From the NCBI RefSeq assembly GCF_001598915.1, contig NZ_BDAP01000010.1, positions 1-64,000 of the forward strand: a stretch of 64,000 nt of DNA, written 5' to 3'. A program made the translations under genes and the position numbers. Source of the DNA: Williamsia muralis NBRC 105860. GTDB lineage: Bacteria > Actinomycetota > Actinomycetes > Mycobacteriales > Mycobacteriaceae. The notes beneath the pieces were generated by a model that was given only the letters and a program-made list of their open reading frames with translations, was not told where the DNA came from and did no database searches. How positions within the stretch are numbered: the stretch's first letter is position 1; the number at the start of each line of letters is the position of its first letter. Positions 20,065-62,459 of this stretch are shown in pieces.

Positions 20065-21858
20065 GTGCCTTCCCCCACATTCCTCGACCAGGCACCCCGC
20101 TTTCTGTTCTTCACCGGCAAAGGCGGTGTCGGGAAAACCTCCATCGCGTGCGCTTCGGCCATCACCCTGGCCGCCGCCGGCCAGAATGTGTTGCTCGTGA
20201 GCACCGATCCGGCCTCCAACGTCGGCCAGGTGTTCGGACTCACGATCGGCAACACCATCACCACAATCCCTGCCGTGCCGGGCCTTTCGGCGCTGGAAAT
20301 CGATCCCGAACAAGCTGCCGCCGCCTACCGAGAACGCATCATCGGACCAGTCCGCGGCCTGCTCCCCGAGGCCGACCTCGCCACCATCACCGAACAGCTC
20401 TCCGGTTCGTGCACCACTGAAATCGCCTCGTTCAACGAGTTCACCACCCTGCTCACCGACGACGACAACACCTTGGCCCGGTTCGACCACGTGCTGTTCG
20501 ACACCGCACCCACCGGACACACCATCCGCCTGCTGCAACTACCCGGATCATGGACCGACTTCCTCACCGCCGGCAAAGGTAACCCCTCCTGCCTGGGACC
20601 ACTGTCCGGGCTGGACAAACAACGCGCCATGTACGCAGGTGCGGTCGCCGCGTTGGCGGACCCGGCCCGCACCCGCCTCGTCCTCGTTGCCCGCGCCCAG
20701 CACTCCACTCTGGCCGAGATCGCCCGCACCCACACCGAACTCGCCGCCATCGGACTGACCACCCAACACGTCGTCATCAACGGCGTCCTGCCACGCCCGG
20801 ACACCGATGACCCACTCGCACAAGCCATCTACGACCGAGACCAACAAGCCATCGCCGATCTGCCCCGTGAGCTCCGGGCATTGCCGGTCGACCATATCGA
20901 CCTCAAACCCACCAACATCGTCGGCCTCGACGCGCTGGCAAGTCTGCTTGCTCCGACCGCCACTGATCGCCACATCGGTACAGAACCGGAAATCACTGCC
21001 GGCATCGATGACGCCCCGCTAGCAGCGCTGATCGACGACCTCGAACCCCAGGGCCACGGGCTCATTATGTGCATGGGCAAAGGTGGTGTCGGCAAAACCA
21101 CGATCGCCGCAGCGGTCGCAGTCGCTCTGGCCGGCCGCGGCCACCAGGTGCACCTGACGACCACCGACCCCGCCGCCCACCTCACCGACACCCTCACCGA
21201 GGATCTCGACAACCTGACCGTCTCACGCATCGATCCCGCCGAGGCGACCGAGCAGTACCGCCAGCGGGTGCTGGCCACCAAAGGCGCCCACCTCGACGAG
21301 CAGGGCCGCGCCACCTTGGCCGAGGATCTGCGGTCACCGTGCACCGAGGAAGTCGCTGTCTTTCAAGCCTTCTCCCGGGTCATCAACCAATCGCGACGCA
21401 CCTTCGTGGTCGTCGATACCGCACCCACCGGGCACACCCTGCTGCTGCTCGATGCGACCGGCTCCTACCACCGTGAGATCACCCGGCAGATGGGTGAGAA
21501 CGCCTCGTTCACCACCCCGATGATGCGGTTACAGAGTCCCGACAACACCAAAGTACTAGTCGTGACGCTCCCCGAGACCACCCCGCGCCTGGAAGCCGAA
21601 GGCCTGCAGCAGGACCTGCAACGCGCCGGCATCACCCCATGGGCCTGGGTCATCAACAACTCATTGGCCGCCGCACACCCCACCTCACCGCTCCTAGCCC
21701 GCAGGGCAGACGCCGAACTCGACGAAATTACGGCCATCACCGACGCCCACCACCGTGTTGCCGTGATCCCCATGCTGCCCACCGAACCCGTCGGCGTCAG
21801 CGCCCTACAGGCCCTAGCAGCATCGACGGCGCGCACTCCAACACCAATTCGCTACTGA
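20065..21858 (+). CDS. arsA: Arsenite-stimulated ATPase ArsA
   Basis: A 597-aa duplicated ATPase. Both halves carry the deviant Walker A GKGGVGKT (about residues 18-25 and 338-345), the DTAPTGHT signature and switch regions. Metal-site cysteines occur in the first half (SGSCTTE, NPSCLGP) and in the second (SPCTEE). ArsA receives arsenite from ArsD and drives the efflux permease, here ACR3. The GTG at 20065 begins two bases after the arsD stop; the longer open frame upstream is only arsD read in another frame. Confidence 0.93.
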   Translation: MPSPTFLDQAPRFLFFTGKGGVGKTSIACASAITLAAAGQNVLLVSTDPASNVGQVFGLTIGNTITTIPAVPGLSALEIDPEQAAAAYRERIIGPVRGLLPEADLATITEQLSGSCTTEIASFNEFTTLLTDDDNTLARFDHVLFDTAPTGHTIRLLQLPGSWTDFLTAGKGNPSCLGPLSGLDKQRAMYAGAVAALADPARTRLVLVARAQHSTLAEIARTHTELAAIGLTTQHVVINGVLPRPDTDDPLAQAIYDRDQQAIADLPRELRALPVDHIDLKPTNIVGLDALASLLAPTATDRHIGTEPEITAGIDDAPLAALIDDLEPQGHGLIMCMGKGGVGKTTIAAAVAVALAGRGHQVHLTTTDPAAHLTDTLTEDLDNLTVSRIDPAEATEQYRQRVLATKGAHLDEQGRATLAEDLRSPCTEEVAVFQAFSRVINQSRRTFVVVDTAPTGHTLLLLDATGSYHREITRQMGENASFTTPMMRLQSPDNTKVLVVTLPETTPRLEAEGLQQDLQRAGITPWAWVINNSLAAAHPTSPLLARRADAELDEITAITDAHHRVAVIPMLPTEPVGVSALQALAASTARTPTPIRY

Positions 21859-21905
21859 CCACCAGACCCAAGCGCTCCACCGAACGAAAAGGATTGCCTG
21901 CCATC

Positions 21906-22316
21906 ATGAGTTCGACTCCTCGTGTTCTGTTTGTCTGCGTCAAGAACGGCGGCAAGTCGCAAATGGCGGCCGGCCTGATGAGCAAGGTCGCCGGCAACTC
22001 GGTCGACGTCTATTCCGCGGGCACCGCTCCCGGGTCGGCCATCAACGCACTCTCGGCCCAATCGCTCCTCGAAGTCGGTGTAGACATCTCCGCCAACACA
22101 CCCCGCGCCATCGATGATGATCTGCTGGCACACATGGATGTCGTGGTCACCCTCGGCCGCGAAGCCAAACCCCCCGTCGTCGCCGGACCCCGCTACGAAA
22201 ATTGGGACACCGACGAACCCTCCGAACGCGGCATCGACGGAATCGAACGGATGCGCCTGGTCCGCGATGACATCGCTGCACGAGTCGCCGACCTACACAC
22301 CCGCCTCACCACCTGA
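21906..22316 (+). CDS. arsC: Arsenate reductase of the mycothiol-dependent type
   Basis: A 136-aa low-molecular-weight phosphatase-like protein with the active loop CVKNGGKSQMA. The Lys and the second Gly in this loop are typical of the corynebacterial arsenate-mycothiol transferases ArsC1/ArsC2, which join arsenate to mycothiol before mycoredoxin releases arsenite. The additional redox cysteines of the thioredoxin-type ArsC are absent (VVTLGREAKPP in place of MGCGDAC), supporting this assignment. AAAGGA lies about 11 bases before the ATG. The terminator at 22341 ends the operon. Confidence 0.87.
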   Translation: MSSTPRVLFVCVKNGGKSQMAAGLMSKVAGNSVDVYSAGTAPGSAINALSAQSLLEVGVDISANTPRAIDDDLLAHMDVVVTLGREAKPPVVAGPRYENWDTDEPSERGIDGIERMRLVRDDIAARVADLHTRLTT

Positions 22317-27632: not shown

Positions 27633-29489
27633 ATGAGTCCAGTACCGACGGTTGGCAAAATTTCCTTCACGAAGTTCACCGCCCCTGAAGCAACGATGCT
27701 GAAGTTGGCGCAGGTCGAACCAGGAACGTCAACCGCACTCCAGGTGCAAGCAATACTGGAATCGGTCGCCGAGGGTTCCGTACCCGGGCCATTGTGGAAC
27801 GACCTGCTGGACTACGATCCACCATTGGCCTCACCACGTGCCGCTCCGGGGAACCAGCTCGCCGTCGACAACGAATTGCTTCGGGCTGCAAGGGAATCCG
27901 CCGACAGTCAGTACGTACTGTTCTGGGCCGCCTTGAACCTAGCCGATAAACGCCTAGACGAGATCACCCGTCTAATACTCACCGATTCAAACGGTCGATT
28001 CGACGCCGCTGCAGTCGACAGAACCGAGCTACAAAGACGCCTCACGCTTCATGCAAAAACGAGCGGGTTGAGCGATTTCCCCACCGATGACAAGTCGGTC
28101 ACCAACATTCTGAGCCTTCTCGAGCGGTGCCTGATTATCGTCCCCGAGAAGCGCGGCGGCTCGATTGTTGGCATCAAACAGGTGCTACCCACGCGCGGTG
28201 CAGCAAAATCACTCGTCACTCTTGTGCAACAACGACTTTCGCACCAATCAGTCGAGGCTGTGCCCGGCGGCGAAACGGATCTAGCTCTCGCGATTGGGGC
28301 CAACCGTTGGCTCGGACTCTCCCGGTCGGAGTTCATCGACGCGGTAACACAGGTCGATGCGACCCAGCAACCTCAATCCACACGCGCAGACCTCCCAGAC
28401 GGACTGAAAGAACTGGCAACACAGCTACGTCGTAAGCGTCAAGTCGTCCTCCAAGGCCCACCGGGGGCCGGAAAGACCTACGTCGCCCGACAGTACATTA
28501 CATGGGTCACGGCAGGCCGTGCCGAAGAAAGTAGGCTGCAGGCGATCATCGACGACTTGCCCGAAAATGAGCGCACCGTAGCCGGCATTACGACCGAGAT
28601 CATGCGACGCGGGCTCACGGCCGTATGGGACATCGTCCAATTTCACCCTGGCTATGACTACACGGACTTCGTACGAGCGCTGGTGGCAGAACCCCACGCG
28701 AACGGTGTGACCTTCACCCCGAGACACAAAATATTCAGCCTGGTCGCGGCCGTGGGCGTCGAGCTCCGGCGTAAGAACCACCCCGCCGAGCTGGTCCTCA
28801 TTCTCGATGAGATCAACCGCGGTGATATACCGAACATCTTCGGCGAGCTGCTCTATGCCTTGGAGTATCGAGACGAAGCGGTATCAACTTCCTACTCCAT
28901 CGATGGGGATGCATCAATCACTGTTCCTCAGAACGTCTCGATCATCGGGACGATGAATACAGCCGATCGCAGCATCGCCGTGATCGACTATGCACTCCGC
29001 CGCCGCTTCGTCTTTCTGGACATCGCCGCCACCGACGCTGCACTGCATTCCTACCCCTACGACGACGAATCCACACGAGCCGCAGCCCTTTACCTGGCAG
29101 ACCTCACCAGAGGAGCCTTGGCCGACGCCCCGACGGGATTGAAAGTCGGCCCGTCCTACTTCCTTGCGGCACGGGACGGAGTCGACACGTCGACACATGT
29201 GCTCGCCTCCCGCTACGTCTACGAGGTGCTTCCCTTGCTGACGGAATACGAAATGGAGGGCGAGCTCGATCCGACCGCCCTAGCCGACCTTCGTGAGCGC
29301 CTGGGAATATCGACCGTCGTTTCCCAACAAGATCAGGTCTCGCGCCTAGCCCAGCACTTGATCGACCGTTCTTCGGTCACGGACTCCACCGACGAAGACG
29401 AACTGGCGACAGAAGCACGGGTCGACACGACCGCCACCAGCGTTGCCGACAGCAGAATTACTGCAACCGACGAGCCCGCTGACCCGTGA
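27633..29489 (+). CDS. mcrB: McrB-type GTPase/AAA restriction motor
   Basis: A 618-aa AAA+ protein. Residues 1-265 form a non-AAA N-terminal part, probably the DNA-recognition domain, which I do not recognise as a known McrB specificity module. Walker A is GPPGAGKT (275-282), HPGYDYTDFVRALV (338-351) is the McrB-type motif, Walker B is LILDEINRGD (389-398), and the GTP-specific sensor is MNTADRS (441-447), followed by ALRRRF. In McrBC this ring translocates DNA using GTP and activates McrC. It overlaps mcrC by GTGA. Confidence 0.9.
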   Translation: MSPVPTVGKISFTKFTAPEATMLKLAQVEPGTSTALQVQAILESVAEGSVPGPLWNDLLDYDPPLASPRAAPGNQLAVDNELLRAARESADSQYVLFWAALNLADKRLDEITRLILTDSNGRFDAAAVDRTELQRRLTLHAKTSGLSDFPTDDKSVTNILSLLERCLIIVPEKRGGSIVGIKQVLPTRGAAKSLVTLVQQRLSHQSVEAVPGGETDLALAIGANRWLGLSRSEFIDAVTQVDATQQPQSTRADLPDGLKELATQLRRKRQVVLQGPPGAGKTYVARQYITWVTAGRAEESRLQAIIDDLPENERTVAGITTEIMRRGLTAVWDIVQFHPGYDYTDFVRALVAEPHANGVTFTPRHKIFSLVAAVGVELRRKNHPAELVLILDEINRGDIPNIFGELLYALEYRDEAVSTSYSIDGDASITVPQNVSIIGTMNTADRSIAVIDYALRRRFVFLDIAATDAALHSYPYDDESTRAAALYLADLTRGALADAPTGLKVGPSYFLAARDGVDTSTHVLASRYVYEVLPLLTEYEMEGELDPTALADLRERLGISTVVSQQDQVSRLAQHLIDRSSVTDSTDEDELATEARVDTTATSVADSRITATDEPADP

Positions 29490-30862
29490 CTCCAACACGC
29501 CCCATCGTCGTCCAAGAGCGGCAATCCACAACGATCGGGCCAGAACTGGCCAGCGCAGTCTCGACCAACTTCTGGAAGGCCGCCGACTGCAAAGTGCAAC
29601 GCGCGCCAGGAGACGCCGCTTGGACCGTGACCGCTGGTGACAGCACAGGCGTCATTCGCTCGATTGGCCGAAACCATGACGTGACATTGAATGTCACCGC
29701 CAAATTGCGCGGCGCAGACGTCTTCTTCCTAGCTGACTACGCTTTCGGTCAACGCCATGAACCACTGCGGATATTCGATTTCGACTCTCCCCTAGTGGAC
29801 GCCGTGCGTGACGACCCAACATCATGCCTCCTGATGTGGCACGCGCGCTCAATCAGTCAATTCGCATCACGGTGGCTTCGGCGGGACTACCGACGCCGTG
29901 ACCAAACGTTCAACGGCAAGATCAAGGGCCGCATCCTGGTCGACCAGTACGTCAAAAACTACCTGGCCGTCGGTGAGCCCAATACCGTTCCCTGCAGAAC
30001 GATCGAACGAACGCAAGATACCGCAAACAACCGGATTCTGAAGGCAGGACTGAGGTACATCGCAGCCCTCAGCCACCTACTCCCCGTACCAGCGGCAAGA
30101 AGAGCTGTCATGCAGCAGGTCGCGGCAACGCTACCCAAGTTCGCGCAGGTCTCAGATATCAACGTCACGCGCGCGGACATTCGCAGTATGTCGATGCGCG
30201 GACCCCAGCGGCACTACGGTCCCATTCTCCGAGCAACACTCGAGCTACTAGCACATAAATTCCTGACTGACCATCAAGGAGACACTGAGACTCAGTCGTT
30301 CATGTGGCAAATGCCTACGCTTTTTCAAGAATCTGTACGCGGTCTGATTTCGTCGTTTCCCGATATAGCTCTCGACACCGCACCACCTCCTCGGGCCACC
30401 ATCTACGACAACGACGGCGTAAAACTACGCTCGAGCATCGTCGACCCCGACTTGGTCATCAAGTCTGTGACCAGCGGAGCTCACGTCCTGCTCGATACGA
30501 AATACAAACAAGCTCTATCCCTAGACAGAGGAAGCTCATCGCCGTCTGCGGATGGCGAGGTGATCGACCTGCCCAACAAATTGAAAATCAAGGTGAGTCG
30601 CGCTGACGTGTATCAGGCGGTTGCCTACCGCAAACACGACAGATGGAGGGGCGCTCTCTCAGGGTTGCTCTACCCGGTATGCCTTGCACCTGGACAAAGC
30701 CTCCCACACCCCCTGCAAATCCGGGGTTTCGGCGAGGCAATCTACCTTGCCTTCGTCGATGTCGGTCCGCGAGCGAGCGCCAACATCGGGAAGTTCCACG
30801 AAACTCTGCGCGAACTGATGACTATTTCTCAACAGACCGGCCTCGACGCAGCGCACGTCTGA
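29486..30862 (+). CDS. mcrC: McrC-type restriction nuclease subunit
   Basis: A 458-aa protein beginning at GTG 29486 inside the mcrB stop. The N-terminal half is a beta-rich stalk that would contact the McrB ring (GRIL, TQDTANNRILKAGLRY). The C-terminal PD-(D/E)xK nuclease domain shows MPTLFQESV (Glu 282), VDPDLVI (Asp 322) and LLDTKYK (Asp 337, Lys 339), the core catalytic residues. Together with McrB it should cut DNA. The terminator at 30983 ends the unit. Confidence 0.9.
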   Translation: MTPTRPIVVQERQSTTIGPELASAVSTNFWKAADCKVQRAPGDAAWTVTAGDSTGVIRSIGRNHDVTLNVTAKLRGADVFFLADYAFGQRHEPLRIFDFDSPLVDAVRDDPTSCLLMWHARSISQFASRWLRRDYRRRDQTFNGKIKGRILVDQYVKNYLAVGEPNTVPCRTIERTQDTANNRILKAGLRYIAALSHLLPVPAARRAVMQQVAATLPKFAQVSDINVTRADIRSMSMRGPQRHYGPILRATLELLAHKFLTDHQGDTETQSFMWQMPTLFQESVRGLISSFPDIALDTAPPPRATIYDNDGVKLRSSIVDPDLVIKSVTSGAHVLLDTKYKQALSLDRGSSSPSADGEVIDLPNKLKIKVSRADVYQAVAYRKHDRWRGALSGLLYPVCLAPGQSLPHPLQIRGFGEAIYLAFVDVGPRASANIGKFHETLRELMTISQQTGLDAAHV

Positions 30863-31033: not shown

Positions 31034-31510
31034 TTAGTTCTCTCTGGCTATGCGCATCTTTATCTGCCGCGCGAGGTCGGGATTGTCGAGAAGTTCGTCT
31101 ACCAGCGATTCCATGGCCTGCTGGGCAGTGACGCGAGCGAGCCCCAGCTCATCGGCCGTCCGGTTTAGCCACTCCCCCAGCTTGCTGTTTGTGGTCGGCG
31201 CCAGAACAACTGTCTTTTTGATGGCGGTCTGTCTTGGCGTTCGAACCGAGGGATCATCTGTTCGTTGCTCCGGCTTTGGATCGGCCCTTTGTGGCTGTTT
31301 TTGGCTCTTTGTCGGGGATGTGGCGTTCGGAGTGGTGGCTCGGCGAGGCTCGTCGGTAACCGCAGGGGCCGGCGCAGTGTCGCCCCCCGAGTCAGCGGTG
31401 ACGGGCGTCGCCGCCGTTGGGCCACCCTGGTTGGGACGGGTTTTGCTTTCGGCCGCCGCGCGCGCTGCGGTCGCTTGGGCGCGGAGTCGATCCGCGGCCG
31501 ACTGGCTCAT
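31034..31510 (-). CDS. ParB-like centromere-binding protein
   Basis: A 158-aa protein with a long flexible, Ala/Pro/Thr-rich N-terminal part (residues 1-95) and a compact C-terminal domain (KKTVVLAPTTNSKLGEWLNR, then VTAQQAMESLVDELL) with ribbon-helix-helix character: a short strand followed by two helices. This architecture fits the small RHH adaptor proteins encoded after ParA on low-copy plasmids. It starts at an ATGA overlap with parA. Its likely binding site is the 8-bp-phased array upstream of parA. Confidence 0.72.
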   Translation of the reverse strand: MSQSAADRLRAQATAARAAAESKTRPNQGGPTAATPVTADSGGDTAPAPAVTDEPRRATTPNATSPTKSQKQPQRADPKPEQRTDDPSVRTPRQTAIKKTVVLAPTTNSKLGEWLNRTADELGLARVTAQQAMESLVDELLDNPDLARQIKMRIAREN

Positions 31511-32142
31511 GCGACTTCACTTCCGGTCAGCGCAAAGAGTTCATTAGCTGCGTCTCCGTATGCCGTGTTAAGCGCGTTCGAGATCGGCGACCCGTACGCC
31601 TGGGCGAACCGCTCCAAGCGGCCTACCGTGGGCTTTAGGACCGGGAACCCGTCATCCTCAACTAGTTGCCGGAACGCCGCAGTCGATGCAGCGTTGGAGA
31701 CGGTCCTCGTGAAAAGTACAGCGAACAGCGGGCGGTCGCCGTCCCTCAAATCTGTGACCTCTTCGAGGAGCTGGGCCATGGCTGGCAAACGGCTGTACTC
31801 CATCTGGGTGGGCGCCATTGGGCACACGATGTGGGTGGCGAGCCGCGCTGCCGAGAGAACGATGCTGCGTTGTTCCTTCATTGGCGGGGTGTCGATCACG
31901 ACCACGTCATACTTTTCTCCAGCAATGCCTGGCAGTTGGCGGTGAAGGTTAGCGACGGGCATTCCGATGACGGGGAACGGCCAGTCCCCTGCTGCCTGCC
32001 AACTCAGCAATGATTCGTTCTCGCCGTCTGCGTCGACCCCGAGGACAGACATCCCAGCCTCGTGAAGTGCGTGGGCAAGGAAGGCCGCGGTTGTCGTCTT
32101 GGTTGAACCGCCCTTCAGATTGAGGACGCTTATTACCAACAT
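31507..32142 (-). CDS. parA: ParA partition ATPase
   Basis: A 211-aa Walker-type ATPase. ATG 32142 is chosen because AAGGA lies 7 bases upstream and the protein then begins at MLVISVLNLKGGSTKTTT, the deviant Walker A of ParA/MinD. Switch motifs VVIDTPP and MAPTQMEY follow. Its short length without an N-terminal HTH is the type Ib ParA form, in which ParB, not ParA, binds the centromere. Longer upstream frames would translate the repeat array and are rejected. Confidence 0.88.
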   Translation of the reverse strand: MLVISVLNLKGGSTKTTTAAFLAHALHEAGMSVLGVDADGENESLLSWQAAGDWPFPVIGMPVANLHRQLPGIAGEKYDVVVIDTPPMKEQRSIVLSAARLATHIVCPMAPTQMEYSRLPAMAQLLEEVTDLRDGDRPLFAVLFTRTVSNAASTAAFRQLVEDDGFPVLKPTVGRLERFAQAYGSPISNALNTAYGDAANELFALTGSEVA

Positions 32143-32489
32143 GCGCAAATCCTTATCTGCGGGAGTGCGGATATACGGAGTTACGTAGATCCGTTTCTGC
32201 GGGAATCCGGGTTCGCGTAGAGCCGCGTCTACGGGGCTACGCATATCCAAGTCTACGGGGATACGGGAATACGCACAACCGCAACTCCGCAACTCCGCAA
32301 TCCCGCATGAACGGGTGTACGTAGTCTCGCATCGCAATATCTGCGCATATGCGGAGATCCGTAGCCCCGCATCGCAGTATCTGCGCATATGCGGCGATCC
32401 GTAATACCGTGTCCCCGTATCTCCGTATCTCCGTACTGGCACGGTCACACAGAGTTACGTATTTGCGGGCCTACGTAGTTGCGGAGATG
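32140..32489. repeat. 8-bp-phased CG repeat array, probable partition centromere
   Basis: From 32144 to 32432 the dinucleotide CG occurs at every eighth base at 33 of 37 positions (missing only at 32152, 32248, 32336 and 32376). A second block, shifted by two bases, follows at 32442, 32458, 32466, 32474 and 32482. The units are degenerate octamers of about the form YNCGNANN, for example TCCGTATC. Within it, two 34-base segments starting at 32332 and 32372 are nearly identical direct repeats. It ends at the parA start codon. Contiguous short repeats are how RHH partition proteins recognise centromeres. Confidence 0.85.
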
Positions 32490-34837: not shown

Positions 34838-36796
34838 TCAGCCGGCGCGTGGCGGCGGCCGCCGTCGAGGTTCCCGCCGCGCTCTCACGGGCCGACGTCG
34901 AAGCGTGGTTTTGGTTTCCCAACCTTGGATGTCATCCCAGCTGGCATCTAGTGCCGCCAGTTCGAGCTGACGCGAGCCCTGGACACCCCTATCCCTCGTG
35001 CGGTCACGCAGACGACGTAGCCGGGTAGCGGCTTTCACCTGCTCAGGGCGACTCTCTGCATGCCAAGCTGAGCGCTCTGCGTTAATACGAATCCGGAGCG
35101 CCCGCAGCCGAGAGGTAGCACCGCAGGGCTGAGCCGCCTCGTCTGCCGTCGCCGGTCCGCGCACCCACCTCGTGCCGCGCCCTGCTCCTACCCGCTGAGC
35201 AAGTCCGTGCTGCTCCAGAGTGCGCAGAACTCGGCCGCAACCGAAACGGGCGGTACCGGCAGGGAGCCCGGATGCCTGGGCCAGTGAAGCTGTGTCCGTT
35301 GGGGTATCCGTGAGGGAGCAGTGGAGGAGCCAGGCGCTATGCCCGAGGACTCCCCAGGTGGGGGAGAGGGGTTGGCCGGTGGTGAGGGGGAGCGTGGGGC
35401 TGGGGGCTGTGACGTCATGTACGGGTTTTGACCGGTTAAGACGGGGCGGAACTGCGAGAGAAAACAGGGTGGCCTCACGTGCTGGCCCTTGCGAATGAGC
35501 CCTGGCTTCTTGCAGCACCCCCCGGGCGATCAAGTCGGATCTGATTGCGGCTGCACGGTCGATATGGACGTTGAGCCACATCGCCAGGCACCGGACGCTT
35601 ACGGGGCGGTTCTCGAGGCCGTGGCCGTCTGTGAACCGGTGTTTGAGGACAGCGAGCACGCCTACCGCGAGGTCCGGGGAGTCTGACCACGTCGCAATCT
35701 CTTCGCGCACCTGGGTAACGACGTCCTGCTCAGCAATGGTCAGCGCGGGGCGATGGGATCGCGCTCTGGCCACGAGAGATTGCCAGTGTTTTTGGCAGTC
35801 ACTGGGACCTGGTTTATCGGCCGGGCGACGGATGTCGCGATCGGCGAACTTCGTGAAGACGGGGCAGTTGGTGTACCACCATTTCGCTTGTGCCCAGGAA
35901 CGGACGCCGTTACGCCACAGCACCCACGCCGCCTTTAGTGCCTGGTCAGAACGGTGTGGCGCGACTGGCGTCGACATCATCAATCGCCACTCTTGGTCTG
36001 AGAGCCGTTTCCGTCGACGCCATGCCCGCGGAGCTTCCTCGGCCAGCTCAAACGACTCGGTCAGCGTGGGGTCGACGACAATTCGTCCCGGTGCCGGAGC
36101 TGCGACGGGCATAGCTACTGGGCCCTGCGAGCCGACAGGTGGTGCGGTCGCGAGGGCGAGCGTTGCTCGGCGCACTGCCTCCACGGCTGTAATTGGCCGC
36201 CCCGCCACGTCGACTGGCCGGCAGAAGTGACCACCCTTCAAGCTCACGGAACCAGGCAAACGCAGCACCCGGCGATCAGTCAGGACGTCCACCGCCTGGT
36301 GGGTCTCTAGCCTGGCCCAGCGACGGATGCTGTCCACGTGCGCGAGCAAGAAGGCGCGGGCGGCCGGACTTGGGCACACAAATGAGATGTGAAGCGAGTC
36401 CGGCGAGCCAGAGGCTGCGAGGTGCACTATTGCGGCGCCGACTTCCTCCCCGGCTTCCAAAATCGGGGAAAGAACCTGGTCAGCGCACTTATCGATGTCG
36501 ATGGTTAGGAAGTCAGGGCGCAGGGGGGCAACAACAGCCCAGATCGCTTTACCCGCTCCCGCGTGCTCGGCCTCAGCGATCAATGCCACTGGGTTGCCAA
36601 TACGAACCGAGGCGGCCTCGTTAGCTGCGTCAGTCGGTTCCAGAGCGCGGCCGTGTGCGGTCGGGTCAACGATCAACCGGTAGAGCTCAGCCCAGCGTGT
36701 GGGCGGCGATTGCTCGGACAAACCTGTGTCCGACACGTGATGTGCAGGGATTGCAGACACCAAAGGGTGCGCTGTACCCTGAGACCTGTCGGTCAA
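34838..36796 (-). CDS. Primase-polymerase-like plasmid replication protein
   Basis: A 652-aa protein. TTG 36796 is used because GAAGGGA lies close upstream. Residues 85-190 look like an archaeo-eukaryotic primase core: FLTIDID (Asp 100, Asp 102), a Ser-x-His motif in SLHISF (His 136), VDV (Asp 170) and VLRLPGSVSLKGG. The C-terminal half has two winged-helix-like domains (about 360-440 and 480-570) and an Arg-rich tail. Plasmid Rep proteins of this build prime or initiate replication at their own origin. It lies near the par locus, in keeping with a maintenance module. The exact family was not verified. Confidence 0.68.
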   Translation of the reverse strand: MTDRSQGTAHPLVSAIPAHHVSDTGLSEQSPPTRWAELYRLIVDPTAHGRALEPTDAANEAASVRIGNPVALIAEAEHAGAGKAIWAVVAPLRPDFLTIDIDKCADQVLSPILEAGEEVGAAIVHLAASGSPDSLHISFVCPSPAARAFLLAHVDSIRRWARLETHQAVDVLTDRRVLRLPGSVSLKGGHFCRPVDVAGRPITAVEAVRRATLALATAPPVGSQGPVAMPVAAPAPGRIVVDPTLTESFELAEEAPRAWRRRKRLSDQEWRLMMSTPVAPHRSDQALKAAWVLWRNGVRSWAQAKWWYTNCPVFTKFADRDIRRPADKPGPSDCQKHWQSLVARARSHRPALTIAEQDVVTQVREEIATWSDSPDLAVGVLAVLKHRFTDGHGLENRPVSVRCLAMWLNVHIDRAAAIRSDLIARGVLQEARAHSQGPAREATLFSLAVPPRLNRSKPVHDVTAPSPTLPLTTGQPLSPTWGVLGHSAWLLHCSLTDTPTDTASLAQASGLPAGTARFGCGRVLRTLEQHGLAQRVGAGRGTRWVRGPATADEAAQPCGATSRLRALRIRINAERSAWHAESRPEQVKAATRLRRLRDRTRDRGVQGSRQLELAALDASWDDIQGWETKTTLRRRPVRARREPRRRPPPRAG

Positions 36797-36934: not shown

Positions 36935-37225
36935 TTACGCCGTTTTCCGGAGCGGTAGCACCTCCTGGAGCATGTCGAGCTGGACCGGATCGAGCTGCAG
37001 CTGTTCGAGCAAGGCGGTGGCCTTCTCTGAGTCGTACTTCTGCAACGCCATCAGCTCAGCGAGTTCGGGATTATCGGCAAGGATGAGCCCCAGCACGTAT
37101 TCCGTGAGGTTCGTTCCCTTCGCCTTGGCCTTTCGCCGCGCGACCTCCTTGATGAGTAGAGGAGATCTCATCCGGAGAGGAACGAGGTCCTGACCTGAGG
37201 GGTCTTTACGTGGGCGTCCGGCCAT
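36935..37225 (-). CDS. Small DNA-binding protein, RHH-like
   Basis: A 96-aa protein starting at ATG 37225 with MAGRPRKDPSGQDLVPLRMR, then a helix pair (LLIKEVARRKAKAKGTNLTEYVLGLIL) and a leucine-rich C-terminus. The AGRPRKDP start and helix-turn-helix spacing resemble ribbon-helix-helix or AT-hook-like plasmid copy regulators. It reads toward rep and could regulate it. The direct repeats and palindrome at 37293-37323 are its possible operator. Confidence 0.6.
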   Translation of the reverse strand: MAGRPRKDPSGQDLVPLRMRSPLLIKEVARRKAKAKGTNLTEYVLGLILADNPELAELMALQKYDSEKATALLEQLQLDPVQLDMLQEVLPLRKTA

Positions 37226-37292
37226 GCGTCCATTTTGTGGGTACGCAATGCGAATCGTGGGGAGCGACACGCCCAGCAGCCTATCAGCGCAG

Positions 37293-60605: not shown

Positions 60606-62459
60606 ATGCCCAGCAGCACCCGTCGCCGCCACAGCGGAGGCAACGACATGTCCACCACCGCCACCCTCCTCGCAGTGGTGGGCATCGTCGCAGCGCTCAC
60701 CCTGTTCTACGGAAGTTGGCGGGTCGGTCGATGGTTCGCCGGAATCACCGAACCAGCGCCGAAGAACCCGATCAACGCCGCCTTGCGCGTAGCCAGCGGC
60801 GAGCTACGTTGGCCCCTCGCATCGACCATCACCCTGATCGTGGTGCTGATAGTCCTCGGCTCAGCCGCTGCCGTGGGCGCGGCGCTGTGGGCCAAGCACC
60901 GCCCCGACCCCCGCACCCGCGAGTTCGACCGCAACGCCCGTTACCTCGCCACGGCCTCGGAATTGACCGGGGTGGTGATGGGCCGCGAAGCCAAACAGAC
61001 CGCTGCACGCTTGCGCCCGACCGCGCAGATCACCACAGCCGCAGACGTGGGCCTGTCCGTCGGGACGCTGGCCACCGCGGCCCAGCGCGAGCTCCTGCTG
61101 TCGTGGGAATGGTGCGCCCTCGTGGTCGCCGGCCCCCGAACCGGCAAGACACACGCTTTGGCCATCCCCATGATCTGCCAAGCCCCCGGCCCGGTGTTCA
61201 GCACCACCAACAAATCCGACCTGCACGATCACACCCGTTATGTGCGCGCTGACCGGGGCACCGTCTGGTGCAGCGACCTGCAGCACATTGCCGGGTCCCT
61301 CGAACAAACCCGCATGGACAGCACCGGACTGGTGCAGAGCTGGTGGTGGAACCCGCTGCGCAACGTTGAACATTTGCGCGACGCCCGCACCGTCGCCGGA
61401 TACTTCAAATCAGCCTCCACCGAAAGCGGTGCCCGGGTCGACTCCTACTTCGACGGCGGTGCCCAAGAACTGTTGGCGCTCTACATGTTCGCCGCCGCCG
61501 CCGCAGGTGGCGACCTACTCCACGTTTACGGATGGCTCTCCGATCCCACCCTCGAAACCCCCATCGAGGCTCTGCTGGCCGCCGGGCACAGCAGCGCAGC
61601 ATCACAAGTCCTCACCGCGCAAAACCTCAACCCACGCCAGCGAGACGGCCTGTATGACATGGCGCGTCGATTCGTCAACGTCATGAGTGATCCCAGCTAC
61701 GCCGCCTCGGTACTTCCCCCGCGCCGCACCATCCTGGCCGGCGACAACTCCTTGGGCAACGCCGACATCACCCACAACGGCGTGGAGTTCATCCCGGACG
61801 AGTTCGTGCTGTCCACCGACACCGTGTACGCGATGAGCATGGAAGGCCCCGCGGCCGCCACTGCTCTGACCACCGCCCTGGCCGGATGCGTCTTTGAAGC
61901 CGCCGTCAAAGCTGCGCGCGCTAACAATGGACGACTGGCTGTCCCGCTGGTGGGAATCCTCGATGAGGCAGCGAATGTGTGCAAACTGCAGGAGCTTCCA
62001 GGCTGGTACTCCCACTTCGGCGGACAAGGCATCTGCCTGGTCACCATCTTGCAGTCGCTGGCTCAGGCAGACCGCGTGTGGTCGGCCAAACAGCTCCAGG
62101 AGCTACTCGGTGCAGCAAACCTGCACTACTACGGTGGCGGATCCAACGACATGGACTACCTCCGACAGGTCTCCGACCGCATCGGCCACCGCGATGTGCG
62201 ACGTCAATCGCGCTCGCACTCACAAGGACACACCAGCTACAGCGAGAACTTCTCCAAAGAACCAGTCCTGAGCCCCGACGCGCTGGCGCAAATGCCCACC
62301 GGCCGAGCCATCGCCATGTTCGGCACCTACCCGGCTGCGCTTGTGCGCAAACAGTATTGGTGGGACGGGCCCCTCAAAGAATCCATCGAGGCCTCCAAAG
62401 CGCGATGCCGTCTCGAACGGACAGCTGGTGGTCAAGAACCCCTCGACACCGCCGCCTAA
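60606..62459 (+). CDS. virD4: VirD4-type coupling protein
   Basis: A 617-aa type IV coupling protein. It has two N-terminal membrane helices (about 20-38 and 73-95), Walker A VAGPRTGKTHA (about 175-185), STTNKSDLHDHTR, Walker B VGILDEAANVCKL, and the TraG/TraD hallmark YSHFGGQGICLVTILQSLAQ. Such proteins link the relaxase-DNA complex to the channel. The relaxase itself is not in the window. GAAAGAG precedes ATG 60606; a second ATG lies 45 bases later. Confidence 0.9.
   Translation: MPSSTRRRHSGGNDMSTTATLLAVVGIVAALTLFYGSWRVGRWFAGITEPAPKNPINAALRVASGELRWPLASTITLIVVLIVLGSAAAVGAALWAKHRPDPRTREFDRNARYLATASELTGVVMGREAKQTAARLRPTAQITTAADVGLSVGTLATAAQRELLLSWEWCALVVAGPRTGKTHALAIPMICQAPGPVFSTTNKSDLHDHTRYVRADRGTVWCSDLQHIAGSLEQTRMDSTGLVQSWWWNPLRNVEHLRDARTVAGYFKSASTESGARVDSYFDGGAQELLALYMFAAAAAGGDLLHVYGWLSDPTLETPIEALLAAGHSSAASQVLTAQNLNPRQRDGLYDMARRFVNVMSDPSYAASVLPPRRTILAGDNSLGNADITHNGVEFIPDEFVLSTDTVYAMSMEGPAAATALTTALAGCVFEAAVKAARANNGRLAVPLVGILDEAANVCKLQELPGWYSHFGGQGICLVTILQSLAQADRVWSAKQLQELLGAANLHYYGGGSNDMDYLRQVSDRIGHRDVRRQSRSHSQGHTSYSENFSKEPVLSPDALAQMPTGRAIAMFGTYPAALVRKQYWWDGPLKESIEASKARCRLERTAGGQEPLDTAA

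Follow-up and report, generated by a model that had tools for sequence, protein, structure and literature searches.

What is the long run of evenly spaced CG dinucleotides that stands directly upstream of a parA gene in Williamsia muralis NBRC 105860, and which protein would read it? The run lies within positions 1 to 64,000 of contig NZ_BDAP01000010.1 (assembly GCF_001598915.1), the whole stretch of DNA analysed here and called the window below. In this work we conclude that the array is very probably the parS centromere of a type I partition system with a small, probably ribbon–helix–helix (RHH) ParB, carried on a probable plasmid; it is probably also the operator of parAB. The parts of the array are as follows.

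32141–32436, strand not assigned: main parS-like array of 37 contiguous slots of 8 base pairs (bp), 33 of them CG-centred, supported by phase, shuffles and family comparison
32439–32486, strand not assigned: second block of six slots, five with CG, after a 2-bp phase shift
32320–32403, strand not assigned: duplication within the array, about 40 bp or five boxes long, from Tandem Repeats Finder

CG occupies 33 of the 37 lattice positions 32144 + 8n up to 32432 (the slots without it are at 32152, 32248, 32336 and 32376), and this single phase holds 33 of the 38 CGs of 32144–32440. The phase restarts at 32442 after a 10-bp step, and five of the six slots up to 32482 are CG (the other is at 32450), the whole array comprising 43 slots over 346 bp. 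When the in-phase count was computed for 2,000 dinucleotide-preserving shuffles of 32144–32440 it reached 14 at most (mean 7.9), compared with 33 in the real sequence, and outside the array the window has at most 13 in-phase CGs in any stretch of 296 bp. The period of 8 is specific, the highest in-phase counts being 33 for periods 4 and 8, 18 for 16, eight for 7 and six for 9. The original prediction had described a CG lattice filled at 33 of 37 positions and followed by a 2-base shift; both features are borne out, with the 8-bp phase far above chance. A promoter scan within the array found no sigma-70-type site.

The consensus over the 43 slots is MTVCGBAK, which is two-fold symmetric: T is present at −2 in 30 slots and A at +3 in 29, while T at −1 and A at +2 occur in a single slot each. 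A purely symmetric box is ruled out, as 26 of the 38 CG boxes join a purine half-site (TRC) to a C half-site, compared with 17.3 expected from shuffles; only 31 of 20,000 shuffles attain 26. This excess of mixed half-sites indicates that the unit is TRCGGA, used in either orientation and in mixed order along the array; TRCGGA or its complement is found in 26 of the 38 CG boxes. The unit initially proposed, YNCGNANN, was correct in being a degenerate octamer and is refined here to MTVCGBAK, or to the slightly asymmetric TRCGGA once boxes are oriented. In the array Tandem Repeats Finder reports only the duplication of about 40 bp (32320–32403, and an overlapping 32328–32422) and no octamer repeat, so the earlier remark that the array is not visible as a simple tandem repeat was right. 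We take this duplication as a trace of array growth by whole boxes.

Constraint on the box letters was computed by aligning related plasmids slot by slot in four pairs, without the pair L006/L021; as L005 is used twice, the pairs are not fully independent. Changes were found in 23 of 344 comparisons at the box positions T, C, G and A, and in 69 of 347 at the remaining four (Fisher p = 3e-7), while DNA outside the arrays was changed at 525 of 1991 positions in the same plasmid pairs. The arrays of L009 and L010 differ by one exact 8-bp gap. The slot comparison and this gap together indicate that phase and core letters are conserved as the remaining positions drift, and that arrays change by whole boxes.

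The array adjoins a parA gene and reaches into its start codon. The elements concerned are the following.

31507–32142, minus strand: parA, 211 amino acids (aa), deviant Walker A motif KGGSTKT, start codon ATG 32142
31034–31510, minus strand: parB-like gene of 158 aa, sharing 4 bases with the end of parA
32150–32154, minus strand: putative Shine–Dalgarno sequence AAGGA of parA

ParA has no N-terminal DNA-binding domain; it matches AAA_31 with 53.2 bits (cut-off 27) and NF041546 ParA_partition with E 2.6e-34 and 118.6 bits, below the cut-off of 180, and its nearest solved structure in a profile comparison with the Protein Data Bank (PDB) is ParF, 4dzz (E 1.2e-17). The small ParB gene downstream of parA occupies the same place in relatives, and the arrangement suggests that the two genes are co-transcribed. 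The window is part of contig C10 (87,631 bp), for which the test made found no terminal overlap. The TraG/TraD-like coupling protein encoded at 60606–62459 suggests a plasmid, and C10 is probably one.

Do the boxes accompany parAB elsewhere? With tblastn, ParA matched 139 plasmid records (E up to 1e-10) and ParB 23 (E up to 0.01). Sixteen loci were taken first, then 38 from genome contigs and seven from viral contigs, many of these distant. Before any count L025 was dropped as identical to L024 in the region, as were L029 and L030 (identical to L028); the distant ParA matches L043–L056 and L058 and the viral L064 and L065 were left out of the counts, and L067–L070, L072 and L073 were left out as repeats of contigs already included. 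Measured without any motif, base identity upstream of parA peaked at lag 8 in 23 of 45 loci, more often than at any other lag. We then used a box vocabulary derived from the window and L005–L020, namely TNCGNA (the base after T not being T, and the base before A not being A), TACTGA and TCAGTA. The downstream stretch of relatives that was meant as a control was itself full of 8-bp boxes, and shuffles were used instead. Computed in this way, box pairs 8 or 16 bp apart exceed all 200 shuffles in 36 of 42 parAB loci, window included, and in 21 of the 25 loci that are later than the choice of vocabulary; the six that fail are L018, L020 (by one of 200 shuffles), L040, L041, L042 and L057. TACTGC boxes at 8-bp spacing, a variant added after seeing them, are present in L040, L041 and L091–L093, which are relatives at a greater distance, the last three being plasmids of Pseudonocardia, Micromonospora and Streptomyces. 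Loci of this kind are not prevalent: they were found in 8 of 401 genomes of the family (E up to 1e-40), in 6 of 397 of the order and in 10 of 394 of the class at 1e-30, these sets overlapping.

The length of the array was compared with 43 loci, of which 41 are relatives and two are phages; the arrays of related plasmids are mostly shorter. Counted in CG-centred slots, the window array comes first (35 slots, 32 hits), followed by L022 (27 slots, 23 hits), with eight for mycobacteriophage RedRock; under a stricter leave-one-out matrix the order is reversed, with 27 slots in L022 and 25 in the best block of the window, which has further blocks of seven and four. The two criteria disagree, so which array is 'longest' depends on the criterion, and the window array ranks first or second in this comparison. 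No support was found for a division into two functional blocks by the 2-bp break, the box clusters of relatives lying in varied phases; a conserved two-block meaning is ruled out, as their offsets vary and no shift is constant.

Three observations on relatives stand apart from these counts. In L021 (Rhodococcus koreensis), about 2.4 kb upstream of parA, box clusters lie in three copies of a 570-bp unit. L071, a chromosome-sized contig of 5.6 Mb, carries a ParA relative with TCAGTA/TACTGA boxes at 8-bp spacing, and this locus is perhaps an integrated element. Lastly, in IMG/VR contigs boxes are found inside parB itself (L059:4658–4735, L060:4664–4733, L062:931–1016 and partly L061), where they code for an 8-residue repeat, for example TSVPTEVS, that forms the linker ahead of the C-terminal domain, 24 nucleotides (nt) making three boxes and eight codons. 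Third-position GC is 0.52, 0.68 and 0.46 inside these boxes and 0.88, 0.79 and 0.86 outside (L059, L060 and L062, respectively), and the centromere would here be encoded within the codons of its own binding protein.

The alternative that survives best, an improbable one in our view, is that ParB merely autoregulates parAB at the array and that the true centromere lies elsewhere. It draws on the position of the array, which adjoins the parA start and covers the putative ribosome-binding site (AAGGA lies 7 nt before ATG 32142 and fills the non-CG slot 32149–32156), and on the many relatives in which boxes lie not only upstream of parA but also between the parAB genes or behind them. Against it, no other cluster of at least four boxes was found on the 87.6-kb contig C10 with the vocabulary used, and 43 slots would far exceed what an operator needs. 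A three-box pattern applied to the whole assembly matched twice on C10 and once on contig C3.

If the array is a centromere, its reader would be the adjoining ParB, of which three parts matter here.

31034–31222, minus strand: ParB C-terminal domain, residues 97–158, an extended strand then helices, RHH-like by weak structural matches
31205–31219, minus strand: predicted DNA-reading strand, residues 98–102 (K-K-T-V-V)
31445–31498, minus strand: N-terminal predicted helix, residues 5–22, in the conserved motif MSxAADxIRAxA

The RHH character that the original prediction gave to ParB is suggested rather than proven. A sequence profile search of the PDB gave no match up to E 10, hhalign found none between ParB and RedRock ParB (taken as a single sequence), and Foldseek with full and domain models returned nothing at E < 0.001; further structural looks gave weak matches among those listed, unrelated ones included, and these suggest an RHH fold. 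Pfam gave no family at E up to 1, ParB/helix–turn–helix (HTH) and CTPase domains included, and NCBIfam only a chance-level match (E 0.046); judged by its domains, ParB would not belong to the HTH-ParB (CTP-clamp) ParABS class. The predicted DNA-reading strand is mostly R-x-T/N-V-D in relatives. The conserved N-terminal motif has basic residues, and its helix is a candidate ParA-activating tail by analogy with ParG (PMC7308502). ParBs related to that of the window match Pfam DUF2274 (13 of 24 in set A3, best E 2.5e-5); the ParB at L093:2705–2941 is annotated DUF2274, and L035:4636–4944 is among further matches. These matches suggest that DUF2274 members are centromere-binding proteins.

The residues of the predicted strand vary together with the centre of the boxes, as computed over loci other than L071, L084 and L090. 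Loci with N100 (n = 9) have 128 CG to six CT boxes, and loci with T100 and D102 (n = 27) have 125 CG to 201 CT boxes. L060 (N) and its sister L062 (T) have CG:CT ratios of 12:1 and 5:9, respectively (p = 0.003), and N100 occupies two separate parts of the ParA tree. The window ParB has T100 and V102. Among loci added to this set, L089 (T100, T102) has four CG and no CT boxes, L078 (T, D) one and two, L095 (T, D) none and three, and L094 (T, D; close to L012) 13 and three, while L091–L093 (T, D) have CT-centred boxes that end differently, as TACTGC; none contradicts the residue rule, although their number is too small for a test of it. Together with the presence of boxes beside parAB across loci and the constraint on their letters, this covariation supports the claim made at the outset, that the protein encoded at 31034–31510 would bind the array as a centromere and operator.

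A model of how it would work follows. We infer that ParB binds the array as adjacent dimers, about one for each 8-bp box, with two-fold pseudo-symmetry; of the two half-sites in a box, TRC would be the strong one and TCC or CCC the weaker, and strand residues 98, 100 and 102 would read it from the major groove. The coated array would then present many ParB N-terminal tails to nucleoid-bound ParA-ATP, stimulating its ATPase, and would be towed over the nucleoid to leave a copy for each daughter cell. ParB binding would also repress parAB by blocking transcription or translation of parA, because the array covers the parA start, the putative ribosome-binding site and the DNA just upstream.

The covariation may reach further, to a natural recognition code combined with array growth and re-coding as a route to incompatibility; taken jointly these are a tentative proposal, with the balance tilted somewhat against it. 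Residues 100 and 102 of the strand would set the central step of every box, T100 with D102 accepting CT/AG as well as CG, and N or S at 100, or loss of D102, restricting it to CG. The window ParB (T100, V102) would have become CG-only by loss of the aspartate, and growth of the array to 43 degenerate boxes would have offset looser contacts so that the centromere stayed functional. If this is true, re-coding all boxes together with ParB would be a route to new incompatibility types. The covariation provides a testable code by which an RHH partition protein would distinguish its own centromere from others, which bears on incompatibility.

The same observations bear on the other alternatives. It is very unlikely that the boxes serve replication as iterons to which a Rep protein binds: iterons are typically short repeats iterated close to maintenance genes, but these boxes stay with parAB although the neighbours differ from locus to locus, and the box centre co-varies with ParB. 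Equally slight is the chance that another small plasmid DNA-binding protein binds the array, for instance the one encoded at 36935–37270 (minus strand), which matches the TacA1 antitoxin family weakly (17.0 bits, short of the cut-off of 21); in most relatives it is the ParB gene that adjoins the boxes, and the covariation points to ParB. That the array codes for an N-terminal extension of ParA, from GTG 32448 in a 313-aa frame that is open through it, has a negligible chance, as the 8-bp period is out of step with codons, six Rhodococcus plasmids (PLSDB) annotate parA from the position matching ATG 32142, and the Shine–Dalgarno-like AAGGA precedes that ATG.

Other genes of the window lie around the partition locus. 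An McrBC-like restriction pair (an AAA_5 ATPase and an McrBC domain protein) at 27633–30862 (plus strand) adjoins the partition genes. The small protein with the weak TacA1 match lies near an uncharacterised gene of 652 aa (34838–36796), for which no Pfam or NCBIfam match was found. Arsenic resistance genes at about 20080–22294 resemble those of Rhodococcus plasmids, at about 77% identity.

How does this locus compare with known systems? It belongs to the small-ParB type I kind already known, and its array would function as the repeat arrays of RedRock and pSM19035 do. It resembles ParF–ParG–parH of TP228, whose parH repeats are 8 bp long, in a ParA nearest to ParF by profile and in a small centromere-binding protein with an N-terminal tail, and differs from it in box sequence and array length, and in that ParB and ParG show no sequence match in the PDB set. 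The 8-bp, two-fold symmetric, tandem met boxes of MetJ are also read by an RHH dimer, but MetJ is a chromosomal repressor with an operator of few boxes, and the window locus has no such gene. Type I RHH ParBs are described as static binders of repeat arrays (PMC13245405). Like the array studied here, δ-ω-parS of pSM19035 has consecutive degenerate short repeats in mixed orientation; there they number 7 to 10, overlap promoters and are bound by an RHH ParB (PMC9499535). They are 7-bp WATCACW repeats at several separate sites, in contrast with the 8-bp boxes in one long block of the window. In the open-licence literature, most subscription papers being outside its scope, we found no published description of these boxes, which apparently define by sequence an undescribed centromere family on plasmids of Rhodococcus, mycobacteria, Nocardia and other actinobacteria. 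With four to more than 30 contiguous boxes in one family, they provide natural material on why so many repeats are used, a question sharpened by pSM19035, where at least four contiguous repeats are required for omega to activate the ParA ATPase (PMC9499535). RedRock (GU339467) has the same organization, with a small ParA and ParB and 8-bp repeats that end at the parA start; its parABS stabilises plasmids, and the two parS loci recognised by its ParB are made up of eight direct 8-bp repeats apiece (PMC7157519). The RedRock boxes are TCGAGTAG-like, different in sequence from those of the window, and lie as 8 + 8 repeats on both sides of parAB, whereas the window has 37 + 6 slots on one side. With no second parS found by the vocabulary used and no ParB similarity found by hhalign, we file the system as a new member of the small-ParB type I kind and not as RedRock-type.
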